From Mayamaea pseudoterrestris (taxonomy: Eukaryota; Bacillariophyta; Bacillariophyceae; Sellaphorales; Sellaphoraceae): DNA of 64,000 nucleotides. Position 1 is the stretch's first letter; every line of letters starts with the position of its first letter. Positions 3,867 through 63,475 of this stretch are shown piece after piece. The notes under the pieces are model-generated. The model did not search any database and had not been told where the DNA came from. It saw nothing but the letters and a program-made list of their open reading frames with translations. Both the position numbers and the translations under genes were made by a program. The DNA lies in NCBI GenBank assembly GCA_027923505.1, contig BROI01000020.1, positions 310,001 to 374,000 on the forward strand. Reading direction: 5' to 3'.

Positions 3867-4511
3867 ATGCGTTGTTCGCCTGCCAAAACCGCTGCGACTA
3901 CAGCTAGTGCCCGGATGACGTCAGACACAAAAAGCTGCTCGATTGATGATTGCTCGTCCTCATTTTTTCAAGGCGAAGACATTGTCCGGCGCCGTCCAGT
4001 TCTACACATCCCACAAAACAAGGTCACAAGCATGTTCATTACGCAAGCAACAATCAACAGCGAGTGTGAAGAAGACAACAGCTGCGATGCGCTCGACTTG
4101 CTGATGGATCCACTCAAGCTTCGCCAAGTCTTGTCGGTTCATGACTTTCTCGCCGAGGACGATGCGAGCTACGAGCAACTTTTGGAAAGTCCCTTGTCCA
4201 TGCAGTCAAGTTCCTCATACTCGTGGAGCAGCTACGGCGATGCAAACTATTTCAATCCATTTCCAGCGCTGTCAACGCGAAGCATTGTTCCAAGCAGCCC
4301 GCCGGATTCGTCGTCTCCCGAGTCAGCTCCATTCACCGATTCACTTGTATTCGGTCCGATTGCTCCCGAGCGAGTCTGCTTTGCATGCAAAAAGACCAAG
4401 CCTATCTTCATGTATTGCAAGAGTCAGTTTCGTCGAAAGGGATCAAAGGCGCGGTGCAAGTGCTGCGTTGACCAGAGTCGCAATGACGAGACCATTCAGC
4501 ACAAGAAGTAG
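3867..4511 (+). CDS. Small protein with C-terminal Stc1-like Zn-ribbon
   Basis: A 214-residue protein, mostly Ser-rich and probably disordered, ending in a C-x2-C-x22-C-x2-C module (CFACKKTKPIFMYCKSQ then RCKCC). The same module, with the shared core [Y/F]-x3-Q-[F/L]-[K/R]-[K/R]-K, starts the two paralogues at 54177-54692 and 55001-55570. From memory it resembles the Stc1 domain of fungal proteins, in which two CxxC pairs bracket an FSxxQ-type core; in fission yeast Stc1 links RNAi to a chromatin methyltransferase complex. Nothing here shows that function. Here the module is C-terminal, and the long domain that follows it in the paralogues is missing. The ATG lies 83 bp from the divergent CX9C gene. 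Confidence 0.7.
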   Translation: MRCSPAKTAATTASARMTSDTKSCSIDDCSSSFFQGEDIVRRRPVLHIPQNKVTSMFITQATINSECEEDNSCDALDLLMDPLKLRQVLSVHDFLAEDDASYEQLLESPLSMQSSSSYSWSSYGDANYFNPFPALSTRSIVPSSPPDSSSPESAPFTDSLVFGPIAPERVCFACKKTKPIFMYCKSQFRRKGSKARCKCCVDQSRNDETIQHKK

Positions 4512-7977: not shown

Positions 7978-9314
7978 GTGCATTGCAACGAATACCATGG
8001 AGCAGGAGCGCGGAAACCAGGTATGATTTGCGCGGCGTTTGAGCCGTTTGAGAATCGAATGATCGAATCAATTTGTTCTGCGGCCACGAACTTTTCTATT
8101 ATCTTACGATTACTGATACATATCCTATTGTCTTCTATTATAAAGACCTCCAAGTCTCCCTTGCTGTTCAAGCTCTCTCGCGACGTATTTTGTCGGCATG
8201 TTCTCAAGTTTTGCTCTCGCCAAGACGCCAAGTCATGCGTTGCGGCAAGTCTGGCGAGTAGCAAGCTTCGAGAAAACTATGATTTGCAGTCGCAATTTTG
8301 CGCTGACCATGGCACTCGTTTCGATCGCAACCTAGAATCACCATGCATTGACTGTCGGATGGAACGACAAGATCGTTTTCGGTGTGTCAAGTGTGACGAT
8401 TTTGCACACATTGATGAGCTGGAAAATGATAGGACCTGTGGAGCATGGCTCTGCGAAAATTGCGGTCCACAAATGGTGTGCTTTGACTGCCATACAACTC
8501 GTCATGGAGAGTGCAAAGAATGTGGTGGTATCGGGATTTGTGGTCAATGTGAACGGACATTTTGTTCGACCTGCCAAAAACTCGAGGCTTGTGACGGTTG
8601 CGGCTTACCCCTTTGCGACTTTGACTGCACACTTTCTCGATGTAACACCTGCACAAAATTGCAATGCGATGCGTGTCGACATGAGGAAGATTTTGTCGTT
8701 TGTGAAAGATGCGAATGGTACTATTGTTCGGATTGTGAAACGCTAGTTCCTTGTGACGGCTGCCAAACGTCCATGTGCTCTCAATGTCGTTCTGACGGTT
8801 GCTCCATATGCAATGTTTGTTCATGTGCGAGTTGCTGCCGTGTCTTCATCTGCCATAAATGCAGCGAGGTATTTTGTCTCACTTGCCGCAATACAATACA
8901 CTGTGAAGCATGCTACGAATCCTTCGTCTGCGCTGAATGCCTAAACGGGGGAATGCGTGACGGTTGCGATATTTTCTTGTGTAAAGACTGTGAATAATGC
9001 AAAATAGAGACTATTTCTAGTGTCAACGTGTTTCCAGTAACAAGTGCTGCAACACAATGCGCTGCAAAAGGTGCGGGCAAGTCCAATGTTCCGATGAAGA
9101 CGATGACGACTGCTGCGAGGGCCAAGTATGTGACCCTTGCAGTGTTTTTCTTTGCGAAATATGCGCCAAAAACCCGTTTCCGGAATGCTCCTCATGTGCA
9201 AAACATTTTTGTCTTGGTACACGTTGCTCGAGATGCAATGAAGCCTACTGTATGGATTGCGGGCCACGAAAGGGGGACCGTGAGGCCGACTTCGTCTGCA
9301 GTAACTGTACATGA
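7978..9314 (+). CDS. Cysteine-rich protein with tandem zinc-ribbon/B-box-like units
   Basis: The first open segment (7978-8997) encodes a run of CxxC pairs spaced about every 10-15 residues from residue 120 on, for example CIDCRMERQ, CVKC, CENC, CFDC, CKECGG, CGQC, CSTC, CDGCGLPLC, CNTC, CERCEWYYC and CHKCSEVFC. A hydrophobic stretch (ATNFSIILRLLIHILLSSII) precedes it. An equally Cys-rich segment follows at 9038-9314 (CKRCGQVQC, CDPCSVFLCEIC, CSRCNEAYC). Removing 8979-9037 (GTGTAA...TTTCCAG, 59 nt) joins the two in phase as a 425-residue protein. Alternatively, the first part ends naturally at 8997 after CKDCE and the second is a separate exon or gene. The units look like repeated zinc-binding ribbons. 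The function is unknown and the start is uncertain. Confidence 0.65.
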
Positions 9315-54176: not shown

Positions 54177-54692
54177 TCAACGTCGCAGGGCGCCTTCAAA
54201 AAGGGGACAACCTGATTTTATGTCAATGTAACCGTTTTTCGAACGGGAATGCCGCATAAGGTGGGCTTTAAATGCCTCATAGATTCGTGAAGTAACGCTA
54301 GACAACTCAAAGGTTTCACCAGCGAGGAACCGTTTGGCGCTCTCCAACGTTGGAGACTCCACGAAATCCACCGTTATATTTTTGGATCCTCCCATAAACT
54401 CCATCGAAAGATGAGCCTTGCCGCTTGCGTTTGACAAAACGTATCCACCCTTGCGACTGCGATTCGCTGCGAAAACTGCGTCAACCGCCTCGGTCAACGT
54501 GTCCATGGAAACTGATGGAAGAGGTAGGTTGTTTGCTACCAGCGGTTCTGCTCGAGTCTGCGTCAGTGTCGACTCTTCAGGGGGCTTGAGGCACGCCATG
54601 CATCGTTTCACCTCCGTGCCTTTCTTCTTGAACTGGCTGGCAGAAAAGCTTTTACGAGGCAAATTTTGATTGCATAAACCACAAGTAGGCAT
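54177..54692 (-). CDS. Stc1-like Zn-ribbon protein, left member of divergent pair
   Basis: A 171-residue protein from the ATG at 54692, whose MPTCGLCNQNLPR start matches MPICGVCNQNLPR of its neighbour. The N-terminal module is C-x2-C-x23-C-x2-C with the FSASQFKKK core. A second domain fills the rest, with segments shared with the neighbour: VDFVESPTLESAKRFLAGET and SRSKNGYIDIKSGCPLFEG. Both halves align with the gene at 55001-55570, so the two are paralogues arranged head to head, 308 bp apart. The Zn module resembles the fungal Stc1 domain; the second domain is not recognised. The predicted protein lacks signal peptide and membrane helices. Confidence 0.8.
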   Translation of the reverse strand: MPTCGLCNQNLPRKSFSASQFKKKGTEVKRCMACLKPPEESTLTQTRAEPLVANNLPLPSVSMDTLTEAVDAVFAANRSRKGGYVLSNASGKAHLSMEFMGGSKNITVDFVESPTLESAKRFLAGETFELSSVTSRIYEAFKAHLMRHSRSKNGYIDIKSGCPLFEGALRR

Positions 54693-55000
54693 TATGAACA
54701 AAGACTACTAGTCTGTTTGCGTAACTGGTAGCTGAATCTTGGTGGAGACAAGCCAGCTTTCACGCTGTGGACTTGTATCTTGTGCCGTCAGATATCGCGA
54801 CGAAAAGATCGCGTAAAAGATCGCATATCATCGCATCGGTACCCACGGCAAGATAAAGATATAGTGCCGATACGACACGATGTCATCACGATATTTCTTT
54901 CGAGACAGCTTCCTCATTTTATAAGCAAACCGTTTAGCATCAAGAAGAGTGACAAAGCATCGATCGGTAGACAATTAGCAGTCTATTAGAAGAGCTCATA
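54693..55000. promoter_or_regulatory. Shared 308-bp upstream region of the Stc1-like pair
   Basis: Lies between the start codons of the two divergent paralogues, so promoters for both are expected. It contains several GCGAT words (for example cgcgacgaaaagatcgcgt and agatcgcatatc) and, at 54829-54842 on the minus strand, the 14-bp core GTACCGATGCGATG shared with 15823 and 39274, 137-150 bp from the left gene's start. Confidence 0.5.
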
Positions 55001-55570
55001 ATGCCCATTTGTGGTGTTTGTAATCAAAATTTGCCCCGAGGGCGCTTTTCTAGCAGCCAGCTCAAGAAGAAAGACGATGCCATGAAACGATGCATGGAGT
55101 GCCGCTCCGCATCCCTCGGCATTCAGCGTCAGCCCGTTACTTCCATCACTGGAGCTAGCATTCAAGCAAAATCCTTTGTGCCGACGGTGCATCTTCGTGC
55201 GGTTGCCAGCAAAAGTACAAGCACGCGTACACTGACCGATACGATTGCAACTGTTTATGCAACAGCAGGCCGTGGGATCGGTGGATTGATATTGGTCAAC
55301 ACGGCAACAGGCAATACATTTTTGTCCTTGGAATTTATGGGAAAAGGCGTGCTGAGTGTTATGGGAGTCGAATTTGTAGAATCCCCAACCATGGAGAGTG
55401 CCGAGAGATTTTTGAGGGGAGAAACCTTTGAGGTCGCTCGCATCAGTTCCTTTGTCTACAACGATTTCAAGACCCATCTGGTGCAAACTTCTCGATCGAA
55501 GGACAATCTGATTGATCTTTTATCTGGGTGCTATCTGTTTGAAGGTGTTATACAGCGCGTGTTAGCCTAA
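55001..55570 (+). CDS. Stc1-like Zn-ribbon protein, right member of divergent pair
   Basis: A 189-residue protein. The N terminus holds CGVCNQNLPRGRFSSSQLKKK and KRCMEC, giving C-x2-C-x23-C-x2-C. A variable linker of about 50 residues follows, then the domain shared with 54177-54692: a TIATVYATAGRGIGGLILVN beta-type segment, FLSLEFMGKG, VEFVESPTMESAERFLRGE and SRSKDNLIDLLSGCYLFEG. The C-terminal domain looks like a compact alpha/beta fold with a conserved SRSK and SGC-x-LFEG end. A third gene (3867-4511) has only the Zn module. The function is unknown. The pair probably arose by an inverted duplication. Confidence 0.82.
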   Translation: MPICGVCNQNLPRGRFSSSQLKKKDDAMKRCMECRSASLGIQRQPVTSITGASIQAKSFVPTVHLRAVASKSTSTRTLTDTIATVYATAGRGIGGLILVNTATGNTFLSLEFMGKGVLSVMGVEFVESPTMESAERFLRGETFEVARISSFVYNDFKTHLVQTSRSKDNLIDLLSGCYLFEGVIQRVLA

Positions 55571-55690
55571 TAGCTGTCAAAGCTGAGGCAATGCAACATG
55601 CAAAAACACGATTAAACGTCGCGTAAAGCTATATATGTTTGATATTGTCACGTTTATAACTTGCATTAACTTGCATCAATGTAATAGGCG

Positions 55691-55759
55691 CTACGTTGAA
55701 GGAGGAAGCTCAGGCTCTACGTTGTAGGAGGAAGCTCAGGCTCTACGTTGAAGGAGGAA
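55691..55759. repeat. 26-bp tandem repeat, about 2.7 copies
   Basis: Copies at 55691-55716 and 55717-55742 and a partial one at 55743-55759 begin ctacgttg[a/t]aggaggaa. They differ at one base. They lie in the 317-bp space between the ends of the Stc1-like gene and the convergent NudC gene, which otherwise shows nothing recognisable. Confidence 0.88.
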
Positions 55760-55887
55760 TTCGGTTTCCAGAGATAATCTCTTGCAGAAGTACTACTAGG
55801 TCAATTACTTGCCGCTTTACCAACACCAGAGGATACTGTCTTCTCCGTACAAATTATATTATCTGTAATGCAATCAAGTTAATATTA

Positions 55888-57000
55888 CTAATTCAAGTTG
55901 AACTTATTCATGTCAACAAACTCCACGCCCGGTGGCAATGCTTCGGGAGGCGGAATCGTCGACGGGTCAGACGTATCAATGGTGGTTGCCGCGTTGCGCA
56001 TTAAACTCTGTTGGTGAATAATCTTTCGAATCTGCGCCTGCGTCGAGTCGTCATACTCTTGAATATGGCGCCGCGAGTCTACTAGAGTCGTATCGATTTC
56101 CTCGTCGCCATGAAAGACAGACTTCCAAAAGGTGCGATTCTGCTTGTATAGAATGAGAGTCAAGATTCCACTTTCAATGCTCCACGTTGATTCGCTGGGC
56201 TTAATTGCTTCGTTCAAATCGCCATTCAAAAACTCTCGTGGCTCTGTTTCGCCTGGCAGCGGAGCCTTGGATTTGACTCGAATATGCTTTGCCTGAAACT
56301 GGACGTCCAAATCCTTGCCGCGGCTGCATTCCGGAGGCACGGGCAGTAGAACGGTACACTCCTCGAGATTTTGAGTCCATTTGAAAGTTGCTGTAGATCC
56401 CCCGTTACCGACCGGAATTTGCTTGCCGTCATCATTGTACCGGACGCCATGCATTGGATCCGTCAATTCCTCTTGTGCGGTCGTCGTTGCTATCGATTTG
56501 GGAGCAGATTCAGCTTTCACCTTCGCGGCTGGCTTTTTATCATCTTCTTCAACGTTATCTGTAGCTGATGTATCGGCAGAGCCCGCTGTTTTGGAGTCAT
56601 TGCTTACTTCCTTGGGCGGCATGCGATGCAAGGGAAACTGTCGAAAGGCGGCGAGCAAAAGCTTCTCCGCATCTCCCTCCACAAATCCCCTTCCAGACTT
56701 GTTGACTCCATTTTGAATATCATCAGGGTGAGGTACCATGTAAAAGTCTGTCCGGCGATGTAAAAAGCTGAAAAAGGCGTAGAGAAACTTGCGGTGGTCG
56801 CCTCCGCTCCAGTTGGCCAGCGCCATGAGTGGAGCGTCAATCACTTGCGTCGTTCGCGGATCGCGAGGATCCGGCATAGCAGGCGATGGTCTACTAGTGT
56901 GAGGAGAATTAGGGACACTCATGACAAGATCAAGGAGTGTGAGTGCTGCTTGCGAAGGTGAGTTTGTATTTGTGACGATGCTTGCGAAGGCTTTCGCCAT
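55888..57000 (-). CDS. NudC-family protein (CS domain)
   Basis: A 370-residue protein from the ATG at 57000 (gccATGGCGAAAG context, reading MAKAFASIV). The N-terminal NudC-like segment reads HRKFLYAFFSFLHRRTDFYM. The p23/CS domain runs from about residue 205 to 300: FKWTQNLEECTVLLPVPPE, AKHIRVKSKAPLPGE, FLNGDLNEAIKPSESTWSIE and LTLILYKQNRTFWKSV. The tail (DDSTQAQIRKIIHQQSLM) resembles NUDCD3/NudC ends. Members act as Hsp90 co-chaperones linked to dynein and cell division. A Lys/Glu/Thr-rich linker joins the two parts. No intron. Confidence 0.88.
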   Translation of the reverse strand: MAKAFASIVTNTNSPSQAALTLLDLVMSVPNSPHTSRPSPAMPDPRDPRTTQVIDAPLMALANWSGGDHRKFLYAFFSFLHRRTDFYMVPHPDDIQNGVNKSGRGFVEGDAEKLLLAAFRQFPLHRMPPKEVSNDSKTAGSADTSATDNVEEDDKKPAAKVKAESAPKSIATTTAQEELTDPMHGVRYNDDGKQIPVGNGGSTATFKWTQNLEECTVLLPVPPECSRGKDLDVQFQAKHIRVKSKAPLPGETEPREFLNGDLNEAIKPSESTWSIESGILTLILYKQNRTFWKSVFHGDEEIDTTLVDSRRHIQEYDDSTQAQIRKIIHQQSLMRNAATTIDTSDPSTIPPPEALPPGVEFVDMNKFNLN

Positions 57001-57160: not shown

Positions 57161-58336
57161 ATGCGTTCAATACCGCGGAGGCTCGTAAGCTGCATAAGTT
57201 TTTTGAATGTAATTGCCTCGAAATGGTGTAGTCAATCCTTTTTCGTCGCACCATCCGCTAAGCGCCCGCCACAATCATCTTCTTCCTCCTGCATCGAACG
57301 CTTACGACAAGCCGTCCATGACCAACAAAGTCTCACAAATAACGCAAATGAAGTATGTCCGCCAATGACAACTGCATTACTAAAGATTAGTTACGATGGT
57401 GGACGCTTTAAGGGCTTTTCTGCCGCCAATGATGAGCAAACATCAACTGGCTCTCTTAGAAGCATCCAAGGCACCATTCAGGACTGTTTGTCACGACTAA
57501 ACGGAAACCTGCCAGTAGTTGTCGAAGGCTGCAGTCGCACCGACAAGGGAGTCCATGCCTACGGTTTGGTGGCGCAGTTTTATTGCATCGATCCCCTACT
57601 GTTTCACGAAACCGCCAATGAGACAACCATGAGCTCATTCAGTATACCCGGCAAACGGCAACCACATCCGTGGAACAAGACGGATGCATCATACTTTAAG
57701 GCTATTCCAGGTGACTTGGCAAGCATTCAGTACAAGCTCAATCGCATGCTTCCAAAAGATGTGCGCATTGTCAATATTGCTCCACTTCCCGACCTTGGTG
57801 CATCAACAGTCTTTCATCCTACCTTGTCGTGTACATGCAAGACCTATGAGTATACGCTTTCATGTGGAGAAGTCCATGATCCTACGCAGTGGCGAAGCAC
57901 CTGGCATATTGGCAATGAGTTGTTAGATTTGGATGCCATGAGGGCAGCCTGCCAAGAAGTCTTTGTTGGGTCCCATGACTTTACCGCGTTTCGAGGAGCT
58001 CCAAGAGGCAAGGACGACAGAATGAAGCATTCAAAACAAAATCCCATTTGCAATATTCAAAGCATGACCATCAGTGAAGACACTAGTCGTTCGTGGTCGG
58101 AGAATACCAAGGTTTACAAGGTAGCTGTCACGGGCGACCGCTTCCTCTACAAAATGGTTCGCTTCCTGGTCGGAGCCGTGGTAGCAATAGGACACCACAA
58201 ATTGTCAACGGAAGATTTGCAACATGCCTTGACAAGTAAAATACGAGATGGTCTGCCCTTGTTTGAGTGCGCGCCAGCAAAAGGTTTGGTGCTGGCAGAC
58301 GTTGCGTACGATGGCAATGAGATTGATTGGCATTAA
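57161..58336 (+). CDS. tRNA pseudouridine synthase, TruA family
   Basis: A 391-residue protein. The catalytic Asp is in EGCSRTDKGVHAYG. Other TruA signatures are ALLKISYDGGRFKGF, NRMLPKDVRIVNIAP, FVGSHDFTAFRGAPRGKDD and YKMVRFLVGAVVAIGHHKLS, with the final LFECAPAKGLVLADVAYDG. TruA-type enzymes convert U38-40 in the tRNA anticodon arm to pseudouridine. The first 65 residues, from the ATG at 57161, are basic and Ser-rich (RRLVSCISFLNVIASKWCSQ) and look like an organelle targeting sequence. The catalytic core starts near Met68. No intron. It diverges from NudC across 160 bp. Confidence 0.92.
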   Translation: MRSIPRRLVSCISFLNVIASKWCSQSFFVAPSAKRPPQSSSSSCIERLRQAVHDQQSLTNNANEVCPPMTTALLKISYDGGRFKGFSAANDEQTSTGSLRSIQGTIQDCLSRLNGNLPVVVEGCSRTDKGVHAYGLVAQFYCIDPLLFHETANETTMSSFSIPGKRQPHPWNKTDASYFKAIPGDLASIQYKLNRMLPKDVRIVNIAPLPDLGASTVFHPTLSCTCKTYEYTLSCGEVHDPTQWRSTWHIGNELLDLDAMRAACQEVFVGSHDFTAFRGAPRGKDDRMKHSKQNPICNIQSMTISEDTSRSWSENTKVYKVAVTGDRFLYKMVRFLVGAVVAIGHHKLSTEDLQHALTSKIRDGLPLFECAPAKGLVLADVAYDGNEIDWH

Positions 58337-59776: not shown

Positions 59777-62700
59777 GGATGGGCGGACCTGCCGCTGAGA
59801 AGAACAGCCAAATCAATCGTGCGCCAACAGGCGAGCGGTCAAGATGAACAAGGTAGCCATGGCGCAGTTAATCATGGCGCATGGCGACGGAGACAAGGGG
59901 AGCGGAGTTCCTCTTGATCATTCCGGAATCAAGGACGGAAGCGTGGCGGCGGGCAAGGCAAGTGAGCGTCATGAAGAAGCTGATCGAACAATATCAGCCG
60001 ACCGATCAAGTTGCCCAATTAAAGTTGATGGATGACCTTAGCAGTCTCTCGATGCGAGACAGCCAAAATCCAACCAAGTTGTTCCTAAAGGTAGCAGAGC
60101 TGGAGAGTCAGTTTCTAGCGTCAGGAGCAAAGCTCGAGGAGCGTCAAGTCGTTCTCATATCATCAAGGCCTTACCGGAGCGGTACAGCGGACGAGTGTCG
60201 GCCATGTTTGAAAAGCACAAGGAGCTAACCAAAGCAATGATACGCGAAGGCGTAGAGGCAGAATATCGCCTCCAAGTGGCGAAAGGCGCCATCAAGGAAG
60301 ACGACGATGAAGATGAAGATGAACAAGCTCTCTTTACTCAATCGTCGATCGGAAACCCCAAGGGGCTGCTGGCTTTGCGGCAGCACGGAACACAAGAAGA
60401 AGGACTGCCCAAAGTATAAAGGAAGGCAGGCGGAGGAAGGAACAGAAGCAGGTCGAAGAAAAGATTCCAAGGAACGTGCATGACGAATGCGGAAAGCAAG
60501 GGCACAAGAAAGAAGACTGCTTTCATCTTGAGAAGAACGCCTCCAAGCGCCCCGCTTGGTTCAAGAAGATCTTGGAGAAGAAGAATGAGTCGGCAAATGT
60601 CACTTGTGACGACGAATTCTTCATCATGGCAAGGGCGTCGCGGAGGTCGACGACGAGTTGTGGTTTGCCGACAACGGGTGCACGAGCGCCATAACGAAGT
60701 CAAAAGAAGCAATGTATGAGACAAGGGCAGCAACAAGCGTCGATAAGATCAAAGTCGGGAACAGTGAATACGTACATCCCGAGCTTGTTGGAAAGTTGCG
60801 AGGCACAATCGTGGATAAGGACGGCAAGAAGGTTGGAAACTTGTCGTTGGATCGAGTCAGTTACTCGGAGTCAGCCGTCGGCAACCTCATTCCAGTCGGA
60901 AAGATGATAAAGGAAGGTTGGACGCTGAAGCAGTCAATAGATGGACTGGAGTTAAGCAAAGGAAAGCGCAAGTTAGTCTTCGATGTGACGGTACAAGTCG
61001 GCAGCGGAGTCTTCTCCACGCTATGCGAGTCAAAAGGACGCCGACGACGGCAGAACAAGCAACAGTCGCGGCAAACGCAAACAGAGTCGTTTCTTACCAA
61101 CAAGTGCATGAAGAGTTTGGCCACATGGGCAAAGCAGCGACTCGAGCGACAGCGAAGCACTTAGGATGGGCTTAACTGGAAAGATGAATCCATGCGTCTC
61201 TTGCGGCGTAGAGCGAAGGCGCGCCAGAAAGGATATCGCTCGAAGGAGCCAGCCGAGAGAGGCAAAGACACCAGGACGACGCATCTACTTGGACTTGACG
61301 ACCCAAAGGATAAAGAAGGCAAGAATCTGCCAGGCAAGTTGGAACGGTCGATGCATCGTGGACGAGGCGACAGGATTCAAAGTTGTCGACTTCTTCGCAA
61401 CCAAGAACGCAATGGTGGAACCAACCTTGAACCTGCTTAGAGAATGGAAGCACAAAGGAAGGGAGGTTGAGTTTCTAAGGATGGATAACGCTGGCGAGAA
61501 CAAGAGTCTTGCGAGGCAAGCCAAGGCAGAGGGACTCGTCAAGCGCATTGAATGGACAGCGGCAAACACGCCGCAACAGAACCACAAGGCAGAAACCTGC
61601 TGGCGCACACTCAAAGGGCGTTCAAGAGCTATAGCATACAGAGCAAACGTACCAGAGAAGCAGAGGCAGAAGTTCTTTGCAAGGCTAGTAAAGCATGCTA
61701 GCAAGTTGGATGGACTCACCATGGTCGAGTTGAATGGGGAAATGAAAACACGCTATGAGCACTTTGGCGAAAAGATTCCACGCTTTGTTAAGTACATGAG
61801 GCGTTGGGGCGAGGCGTGCGTGCTGACGAAAGGTGTCAAGAAACCGGAATGGAATTTGACAAAGGCGCAGTCGGCATGTTGGTAGGCTTTCCGGATGACC
61901 ATGAGGGAGACGTCTATCAAGTTTGGAATCCCAAGACGAATAGAGTTGCAGAGGTTAGAGATGTAACGTTCCTAAACAAGTGGTATTTCCAAGAAACGAT
62001 CAAGGAGATAGCCGACTTAAAGGAGAAGGAAGGCATCGATTGGGATCTTGACACCCCAAGAGGTGCGACTCACGACGCGCAAGCCAGCGACAGTGAGGAA
62101 GAGGAGAGTGTCAACGGTGACGTTGACAACGTGGCATCAGCAAACGAGCGAGCTGTCACAAAGATTGACCATGGGGAAGGAAGAACAATCGATCCGGGCG
62201 CGTTGTAATACCAAGGCAACGATTGATCGAGCAAAACGCGTGGCGTATCAGCTGGCGACCCAAGAATGCGTTGGCGATGCTGGACTGTGAGCTTACGCTC
62301 AACGCGGCAATCATCGAGGAGATGGAGGAAGGCGAGTGCTACACGCCGGCGCGCGACGAGTTAGCGCGTTGGCGCGAAGGGATTGGCGATGGCATTGCGC
62401 ATACATCAGAGCTACAAGTAATGAAGTTCACAGCGAGGCAATGGCGAAGGGACCAGTCGCTGAATGGCAGAAGGCGGTTGACGACGGGCATGATCGAATG
62501 CTCAAGTATCAAATGCTTCAAAGAAATCCCACGCTCGCAGCTTCCTGAAGGAACGAAGCTGATCGACACGACATGGGCAATGAAGCAAAAGGCAAACGGA
62601 ACAAAGCGAGCAAGAATGGCGGTCAGGGGATTCCAGCAGATCGAAGGAGTCCATTACGATCCCAAGTCGGTGTCGGCGCCTGTCGAATCTATCGACGACG

Positions 62701-63475
62701 CGCATCATGTTGGTATTGATGTTGATGGCACGCTGGGACGCGCACATTGTCGACGTGCGAGGAGCATTCTTGCAAGGCAAGTTCGAAAACGACGAAAAAA
62801 GATTTACATTAAGATACCACAAGGATTCGAAAAGCATTATAAAGCAGACAGCGTGTTGCAGCTGTTGGCGCCAGTGTACTGGATTGATACAAGCGGCGTA
62901 CTGTTTCTATTTGGTGTTGGTCAGAGCGTTCGACAACCAAGGATACGGAAGGAGCAAGGCCGATCCATGCCTCTATTATCAATGGGGCGAACAAGGATTA
63001 CATCTTTGGTCGAAATCATACGGATGACTGCTTGTCGGCCGGAAAGGATATCATCACAGCGAAGAACAAATTCATGAGCGAACTCCGACTGCGAGGACAT
63101 TGGCGAGTTGAAAGAGCACATCGGCTGCAAGATCGATATCAACAAGGAAGAAGGATGGTTGAAGATAACTCAACCAGTCGCAATTCAAAGACTCAAAGAC
63201 GAGTTCAATATACCCGACGAGCTCGATGAGGAGAGGCTTCCCGGCGTCACCGGGAAGCAAGTTAAGAAAGACGGCGAAACAATCGTTGGAGCGCAGGAGC
63301 ATCAACGAGTTTCGCAGCGGCGTTGGCATTGTTCAATGGATTAAAAGAGGCTCGAGACCAGAGATAAGCAACGCTGTTAGAGACGTTGCAAGGCGTCTAC
63401 AAGGACCAACGGAAGCGCATGTGAAGCGAACCATCGAATCATGCGCTACTTAACGAGGACTCCGGAGCGTGGACT
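59600..63475 (+). mobile_element. Ty1/copia-like LTR retrotransposon fossil, internal region
   Basis: Recognisable parts lie in Ty1/copia order: gag from 59600 with zinc-knuckle motifs (CWLCG-type and CGKQGHKKEDC) up to about 60.6 kb; protease near 60.66 kb (WFADNGCTS); integrase about 61.1-61.8 kb; reverse transcriptase about 62.5-63.1 kb; and the beginning of RNase H near 63.45 kb. Integrase before reverse transcriptase marks the copia and not the gypsy order, as in the CoDi elements of diatoms. The element is broken, with several breaks (roughly five to ten), and its 3' end is missing where it abuts the repeated block. No pair of LTRs can be delimited. Recognisable domains suggest a fairly recent insertion. 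Confidence 0.88.

Follow-up and report, generated by a model that had tools for sequence, protein, structure and literature searches.

Results

Architecture of the divergent gene pair

The window, a stretch of 64,000 nucleotides that is part of contig C20 in the 30.6-Mb, 41-contig genome of Mayamaea pseudoterrestris, contains two open reading frames (ORFs) that are arranged head to head, are both complete and carry no interruption (Table 1). Our alignment reveals that the encoded proteins share 49% identity, and a tblastn search with the plus-strand protein recovers the minus-strand gene at an E-value of 2.1e-39. Cysteines 4, 7, 31 and 34 (positions in the plus-strand protein, taken from the alignment) are present in both proteins, and the motifs VDFVESPT or VEFVESPT, SRSK and SGC-x-LFEG are common to their C-terminal parts. 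Coordinates, motifs and the tblastn match thus agree with the earlier note on this locus, which had described two paralogues diverging from a 308-bp spacer, each joining a Zn module to the same C-terminal domain. When the window is read in all six frames, cysteine pairs with about the spacing of this module (x20-25) occur at 23 places, and 17 of these fall within 8452-9225; since pairs of such spacing are not rare, the finding rests on the core motif and the paralogy rather than on the cysteines. The ORF at 8023-8997 (+), without a Pfam match at 0.001, and the stretch at 9153-9308 are very cysteine-rich, with many CxxC pairs.

Table 1. Coordinates of the gene pair, the third gene and the further finger-bearing ORFs. 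Positions are those of the window except where a contig is named.
Feature	Position	Strand	Basis
Gene, 171-aa ORF, single Stc1-type Zn finger and C-terminal domain without assigned family	54177..54692	-	ORF list, tblastn, alignment
Zn module of minus-strand gene, C-x2-C-x23-C-x2-C with FSASQFKKK	54591..54683	-	Pfam scan, pattern
C-terminal domain of minus-strand gene, 110 aa	54180..54509	-	No Pfam match up to E 10
Spacer, start codon to start codon, 308 bp	54693..55000	.	
Gene, 189-aa ORF, single Stc1-type Zn finger and C-terminal domain without assigned family	55001..55570	+	ORF list, tblastn, alignment
Zn module of plus-strand gene, C-x2-C-x23-C-x2-C with FSSSQLKKK	55010..55102	+	Pfam scan, pattern
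C-terminal domain of plus-strand gene, 113 aa	55229..55567	+	No Pfam match up to E 10
Inverted repeat, left arm, 108 nt, covers Zn module, 80% complementary to 54996-55103	54590..54697	.	
Inverted repeat, right arm, 108 nt, covers Zn module	54996..55103	.	
Third gene, 214-aa ORF, one Stc1-type Zn module near C terminus	3867..4511	+	ORF list, Pfam scan
Zn module of third gene, C-x2-C-x22-C-x2-C	4377..4466	+	Pfam scan, six-module PDB profile search
1924-aa ORF, N-terminal finger like that of the pair	L019:852-6626, contig C2		
Two related ORFs in tandem, each with a C-terminal Stc1-type module	C12:360407-362159		DNA patterns

The linker between the Zn module and the C-terminal domain is poorly conserved (20% identity, 30 aligned codons). 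The C-terminal domain retains 51% amino-acid identity over 107 codons, with a pN of 0.31 against a pS of 0.70; on these values both frames appear to be selected as protein, indicating that purifying selection acts on the pair proteins. Since the C-terminal domain has only two copies in the genome, the genes might instead be regarded as decaying or non-functional duplicates retained by chance. However, both frames are intact, pN lies well under pS, and half of the C-terminal residues are kept despite the high synonymous divergence, and we consider such decay very unlikely.

The inverted repeat and the spacer

The 5' ends of the two genes are the more alike part of the pair. The inverted repeat that covers the Zn modules extends past each start codon by 5 bases into the spacer. 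The two genes use identical codons for 17 of the 21 residues shared in the Zn part and for 22 of the 54 shared in the C-terminal part (Met and Trp excluded; Fisher p 0.002), and pS falls to 0.34 in the Zn part as compared with the value given above for the C-terminal part. Gene conversion between the inverted copies would be the simplest reading of these more similar 5' ends, while constraint on the DNA itself may account for them as an alternative.

The similarity between the two spacer halves does not exceed chance, as 148 of 500 shuffles reach their score. A mirrored promoter in the spacer was rejected on this result, and the inverted repeat extends into the spacer only by the 5 bases noted above. 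The genes of a second divergent pair in the window, at 55888-57000 (minus) and 57161-58336 (plus), lie only 160 bp apart. The shared regulation that had been proposed for the two paralogues is therefore not supported. Visual inspection shows a unit of ~26 bp repeated head to tail almost three times at 55690-55760, downstream of the plus-strand gene. Further along the window, at 60712-63077 (+), three consecutive short ORFs, of which the third matches RVT_2, possibly represent remains of a Ty1/copia-like retroelement.

The C-terminal domain of the pair

The C-terminal domain had been described as matching nothing known, and this description held in our searches: no Pfam family matches it up to an E-value of 10, no PDB sequence is matched by the pair profile, and NCBIfam and PHROGs yield weak matches only (best 0.22 and 0.019, respectively), none at an E-value of 0.001. 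These comprise phrog_12840, of unknown function (E 0.019, residues 50-139 of the minus-strand protein), phrog_14486 (E 0.13, residues 43-102 of the plus-strand protein) and NF052256 (E 0.22, residues 72-98); these matches lie outside the module, and we accepted none of them as a relative. Within the genome, no copy of the domain beyond the pair is found at E-values up to 10. Searches of viral contigs, by alignment of the whole pair proteins or of the C-terminal domain, and of bacterial and archaeal genome contigs with the C-terminal domain gave no confirmed relative, and the plus-strand protein finds no phage record at E-values up to 1. As the genome collections hold bacteria and archaea, the lack of relatives there does not imply that the domain is rare.

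AlphaFold models of the plus-strand protein with its paralogue (mean pLDDT 40.3) and of the C-terminal domain alone (mean pLDDT 44.1) are unreliable; in both, the domain starts with a helix and three strands followed mostly by helices, an arrangement that is not usable at these scores. A Foldseek search with the first model returned 14 matches (best E 2.0), which we did not count as evidence. The C-terminal domain is the only part of the pair that may be new, the zinc part being of a known kind.

Single-finger modules elsewhere in the genome

The gene at 3867-4511 had been proposed as a third relative. It does carry a related module near its C terminus, but its protein finds no match to the plus-strand pair protein by BLASTP. 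Beyond the pair and this gene, at least three more modules are present on contigs C2 and C12. The C2 module was found with the plus-strand protein in a tblastn search of the genome (E 0.0055) and heads an ORF that has extended acidic tracts and, towards its C terminus, weak LRR matches (LRR_14, E 0.0047, below its cut-off); a hydrophobic stretch ahead of these matches appears by eye to be a membrane span. The two modules on C12 end a tandem pair of related ORFs, the second of which has a stop inside and a module whose last pair is C-x3-C. The stretch GGWEFVRKKKH in these tandem ORFs is reminiscent of HicA-like proteins; a HicA-like family is absent from the Pfam matches of the first of the two.

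Comparison of the six modules with Cys-fixed shuffles supports their similarity, as 14 of the 15 module pairs beat the shuffles at p < 0.01. The third-gene module does so against both pair modules (p 0.0001 and 0.004), and its comparison with the C2 module is the exception (p 0.066). Furthermore, a profile of the pair and C2 modules aligns with a profile of the third-gene and two C12 modules at an hhalign P of 7.2e-9. Three DNA patterns were used to search the genome. The first occurs at 12 places (5 in its reversed control), four of them with flanking Cys pairs; the second at 3 places (control 3), two of which lie in the C12 modules; and the third at 2 places (control 0), one of them in C12. 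Six modules in the genome is a lower bound, because the third gene fits none of the three patterns. The first C12 module was chosen by the pattern holding the FSxSQ core and the second was first spotted by eye, a way of picking that somewhat flatters the E-values of the profiles holding them.

Relation of the finger to Stc1

The tandem domain of Stc1 contains eight cysteines. It is a LIM-like tandem of zinc fingers according to the text of the fission yeast study (PMC2875855). The pair and third proteins have one C4 module each, that is, one finger as compared with two in Stc1. The pair and the third gene share with the Stc1 family the finger layout, the F-S-x-S/T-Q core and an Arg before the third Cys; they differ from it by their single finger and, in the case of the pair, by a different C-terminal part and a Leu at the position of Stc1 K100.

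For the whole pair proteins, Stc1 (PF12898, curated cut-off 24.8 bits) is the only Pfam family matched, at E-values of 0.033 and 0.019 (15.2 and 15.9 bits), below the cut-off. The whole third protein has no Pfam match, and its last 69 residues match Stc1 at 0.0031 (18.5 bits). When the modules are scanned alone, Stc1 matches five of the six, with E-values from 4.5e-5 to 0.021 and 15.8 to 24.4 bits, all below the cut-off: the pair modules at 0.0014 and 0.0011 (19.6 and 19.9 bits), the third-gene module at 0.016 (16.2 bits), and the first and second C12 modules at 0.021 and 4.5e-5 (15.8 and 24.4 bits). The C2 module has no match to Pfam Stc1. Stc1 is the only Pfam family matching more than one module, six other families matching one module each. 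The Stc1 alignments run from profile position 52, 53 or 54 to 82 or 83 of 84.

In a search of the PDB with the six-module profile, the best and only chain below an E-value of 0.1 is 2luy_A (P8B7.28c), at 1e-4; it is matched within finger one and across finger two, by stretches that are weak singly (0.14 and 0.043). SPBP8B7.28c is identified in the text of the same study as S. pombe stc1 (PMC2875855). The profile of the third-gene and two C12 modules finds 2luy_A at 7.1e-7 and nothing else up to an E-value of 10, and the three window modules alone find it as the only chain at 0.063. The profile of the pair and C2 modules does not find Stc1 in the PDB, its one chain being another at E 5.7. Two controls in which the columns between the Cys pairs were permuted returned no PDB chain up to an E-value of 10.

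Profile and Pfam matches, intermodule similarity and the empty permuted controls together show that the finger is, in sequence, related to those of Stc1. The evidence is strongest for the third-gene and C12 modules taken together; for the pair it rests on the sub-threshold Pfam matches and on the intermediate modules. The earlier note's suggestion that the Zn module resembles the Stc1 domain is therefore retained for one finger, about half of the domain, on the strength of the 2luy match and of five modules that match the Pfam profile, although none of them reaches the curated cut-off.

Stc1 relatives in algae, a diatom included, are already known: by iterative HMM search, proteins of Ostreococcus, Micromonas, Emiliania, Aureococcus and Phaeodactylum tricornutum (B7GAR1) were assigned to the Stc1 family in 2010 (PMC2875855, Figure S5). 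Their conserved region corresponds to Stc1 residues 40-121, as given in the text and legend of that paper, on which our comparison with them is based. No paper title on single-finger Stc1 proteins was found in our literature search, which mostly covered sources other than subscription journals.

Competing matches of the zinc module

The module is also matched by profiles of phage endonucleases, which raises an alternative in which the pair binds nucleic acid: the finger would be like the Zn module of phage endonuclease VII/HNH proteins, and the C-terminal domain would act on or bind DNA or RNA. Such a reading draws on phrog_2340 (endonuclease), which matches three of the six modules (best 0.0046, on the plus-strand module and there nearly as good as Stc1), on phrog_2633 (endonuclease VII), which matches two (best 0.012), and on matches of the two profiles to the whole pair proteins at 0.025 to 0.098. 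In addition, the core of the module is Lys-rich, and tblastn with the third-gene module gives weak matches to 21 phage records, the best at E 0.07; several of the 20 listed are annotated as endonuclease VII or HNH endonuclease. In these profiles the module lies near the N terminus, as in the pair, and the similarity is weak; by comparison, the nuclease domain that follows the Zn module in phage endonuclease VII-type proteins is not found in the pair. Neither Pfam nor PHROGs places a nuclease family on the C-terminal domain, the nuclease matches covering only the module, and the plus-strand module finds a single phage record, at an E-value of 10. Stc1, moreover, matches more modules than these profiles and with a better best E-value.

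Other zinc ribbons outscore Stc1 in part of the modules, which would also favor a nucleic-acid-binding protein. For the first C12 module, KDM6_GATAL (0.0012) and Zn_ribbon_RPAB4 (0.0031) score ahead of Stc1 (0.021), in the same order for the whole ORF, but neither matches the pair or the third gene. Weighing both sides, we regard binding of nucleic acid by the pair as rather unlikely. HgcB_ferredoxin (NCBIfam, 0.056, in the module) and phrog_12813, of unknown function (0.0035 on the third gene, about equal to Stc1 on its last 69 residues), were not accepted as relatives.

Residues required for Stc1 function

Stc1 links RNAi to heterochromatin in fission yeast, and the text of the report describes that C83A and C93A destabilise the protein, while K100A and R116A impair its interaction with Ago1/RITS (PMC2875855). 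In our own mapping, an offset of 29 relates the 2luy chain to the numbering of the paper, and the chain has Cys at 54 and 64, Lys at 71 and Arg at 87, in agreement with all four residues. Aligned to 2luy on this mapping, the K100 position is Leu in the pair, Lys in the third gene, Met in the first C12 module and Lys in the second; the R116 position is Arg in the pair and the third gene, Lys in both C12 modules and Ile in C2. On these residues the pair would be a poor candidate for the known role of Stc1, and the third gene would be the better one.

An Stc1-like role, in which the pair proteins would connect Argonaute with a complex that modifies chromatin during RNA-directed silencing, as Stc1 connects RNAi with CLRC, nevertheless has points in its favor apart from the finger's relation to Stc1 in sequence. 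The genome contains two equally scoring Piwi-domain matches on C5 (105655-106557 and 116397-117299), ~10.7 kb apart and possibly a recent duplication, and both residues reported, in the text cited above, to be needed for the Ago1 interaction (PMC2875855) are present, as Lys and Arg, in the third gene. By comparison, the pair has a single finger instead of two and the Leu noted above, while keeping the Arg, and a similar finger heads the ORF with LRR matches and the apparent membrane span. A family search of the genome for the Stc1 domain also found no match, a weak negative as the controls gave none either; a tblastn search of the genome with one 29-residue Stc1 finger, an uninformative query, found no match. 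An RNAi-heterochromatin role of the pair is thus not supported, and we consider it most improbable.

Discussion

Our analysis leads us to view the pair tentatively, with a little less than even confidence, as duplicated small adaptors, each combining a single Stc1-type finger with a domain of ~110 residues that has no convincing library match. An inverted gene duplication would have given rise to two small intracellular adaptor proteins. Their finger is related to one of the two fingers in the LIM-like Stc1 tandem domain and would presumably bind zinc. LIM-type fingers are generally protein-binding modules, and by analogy the finger of the pair may serve to bind protein, while the C-terminal domain would set the partner or effect specific to each protein.

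The position of the finger at the N terminus of the 1924-aa C2 ORF with weak LRR matches, and at the C termini of the C12 ORFs, points to a mobile module. On a wider and doubtful view, single Stc1-type fingers would constitute a mobile interaction module in this lineage, used in soluble adaptors, in a protein with a C-terminal finger and in an LRR membrane protein. The second domain of the pair would then be a lineage-specific fold. The finger would be an ancient recognition element whose target may be Argonaute or some other common partner, and the tandem Stc1 domain of fungi would have been built from it.

The single fingers found here call for caution in inferring an RNAi function from the Stc1 name. 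The occurrence of single Stc1-type fingers on several otherwise different ORFs of one genome suggests that the module is more general than the role of Stc1.
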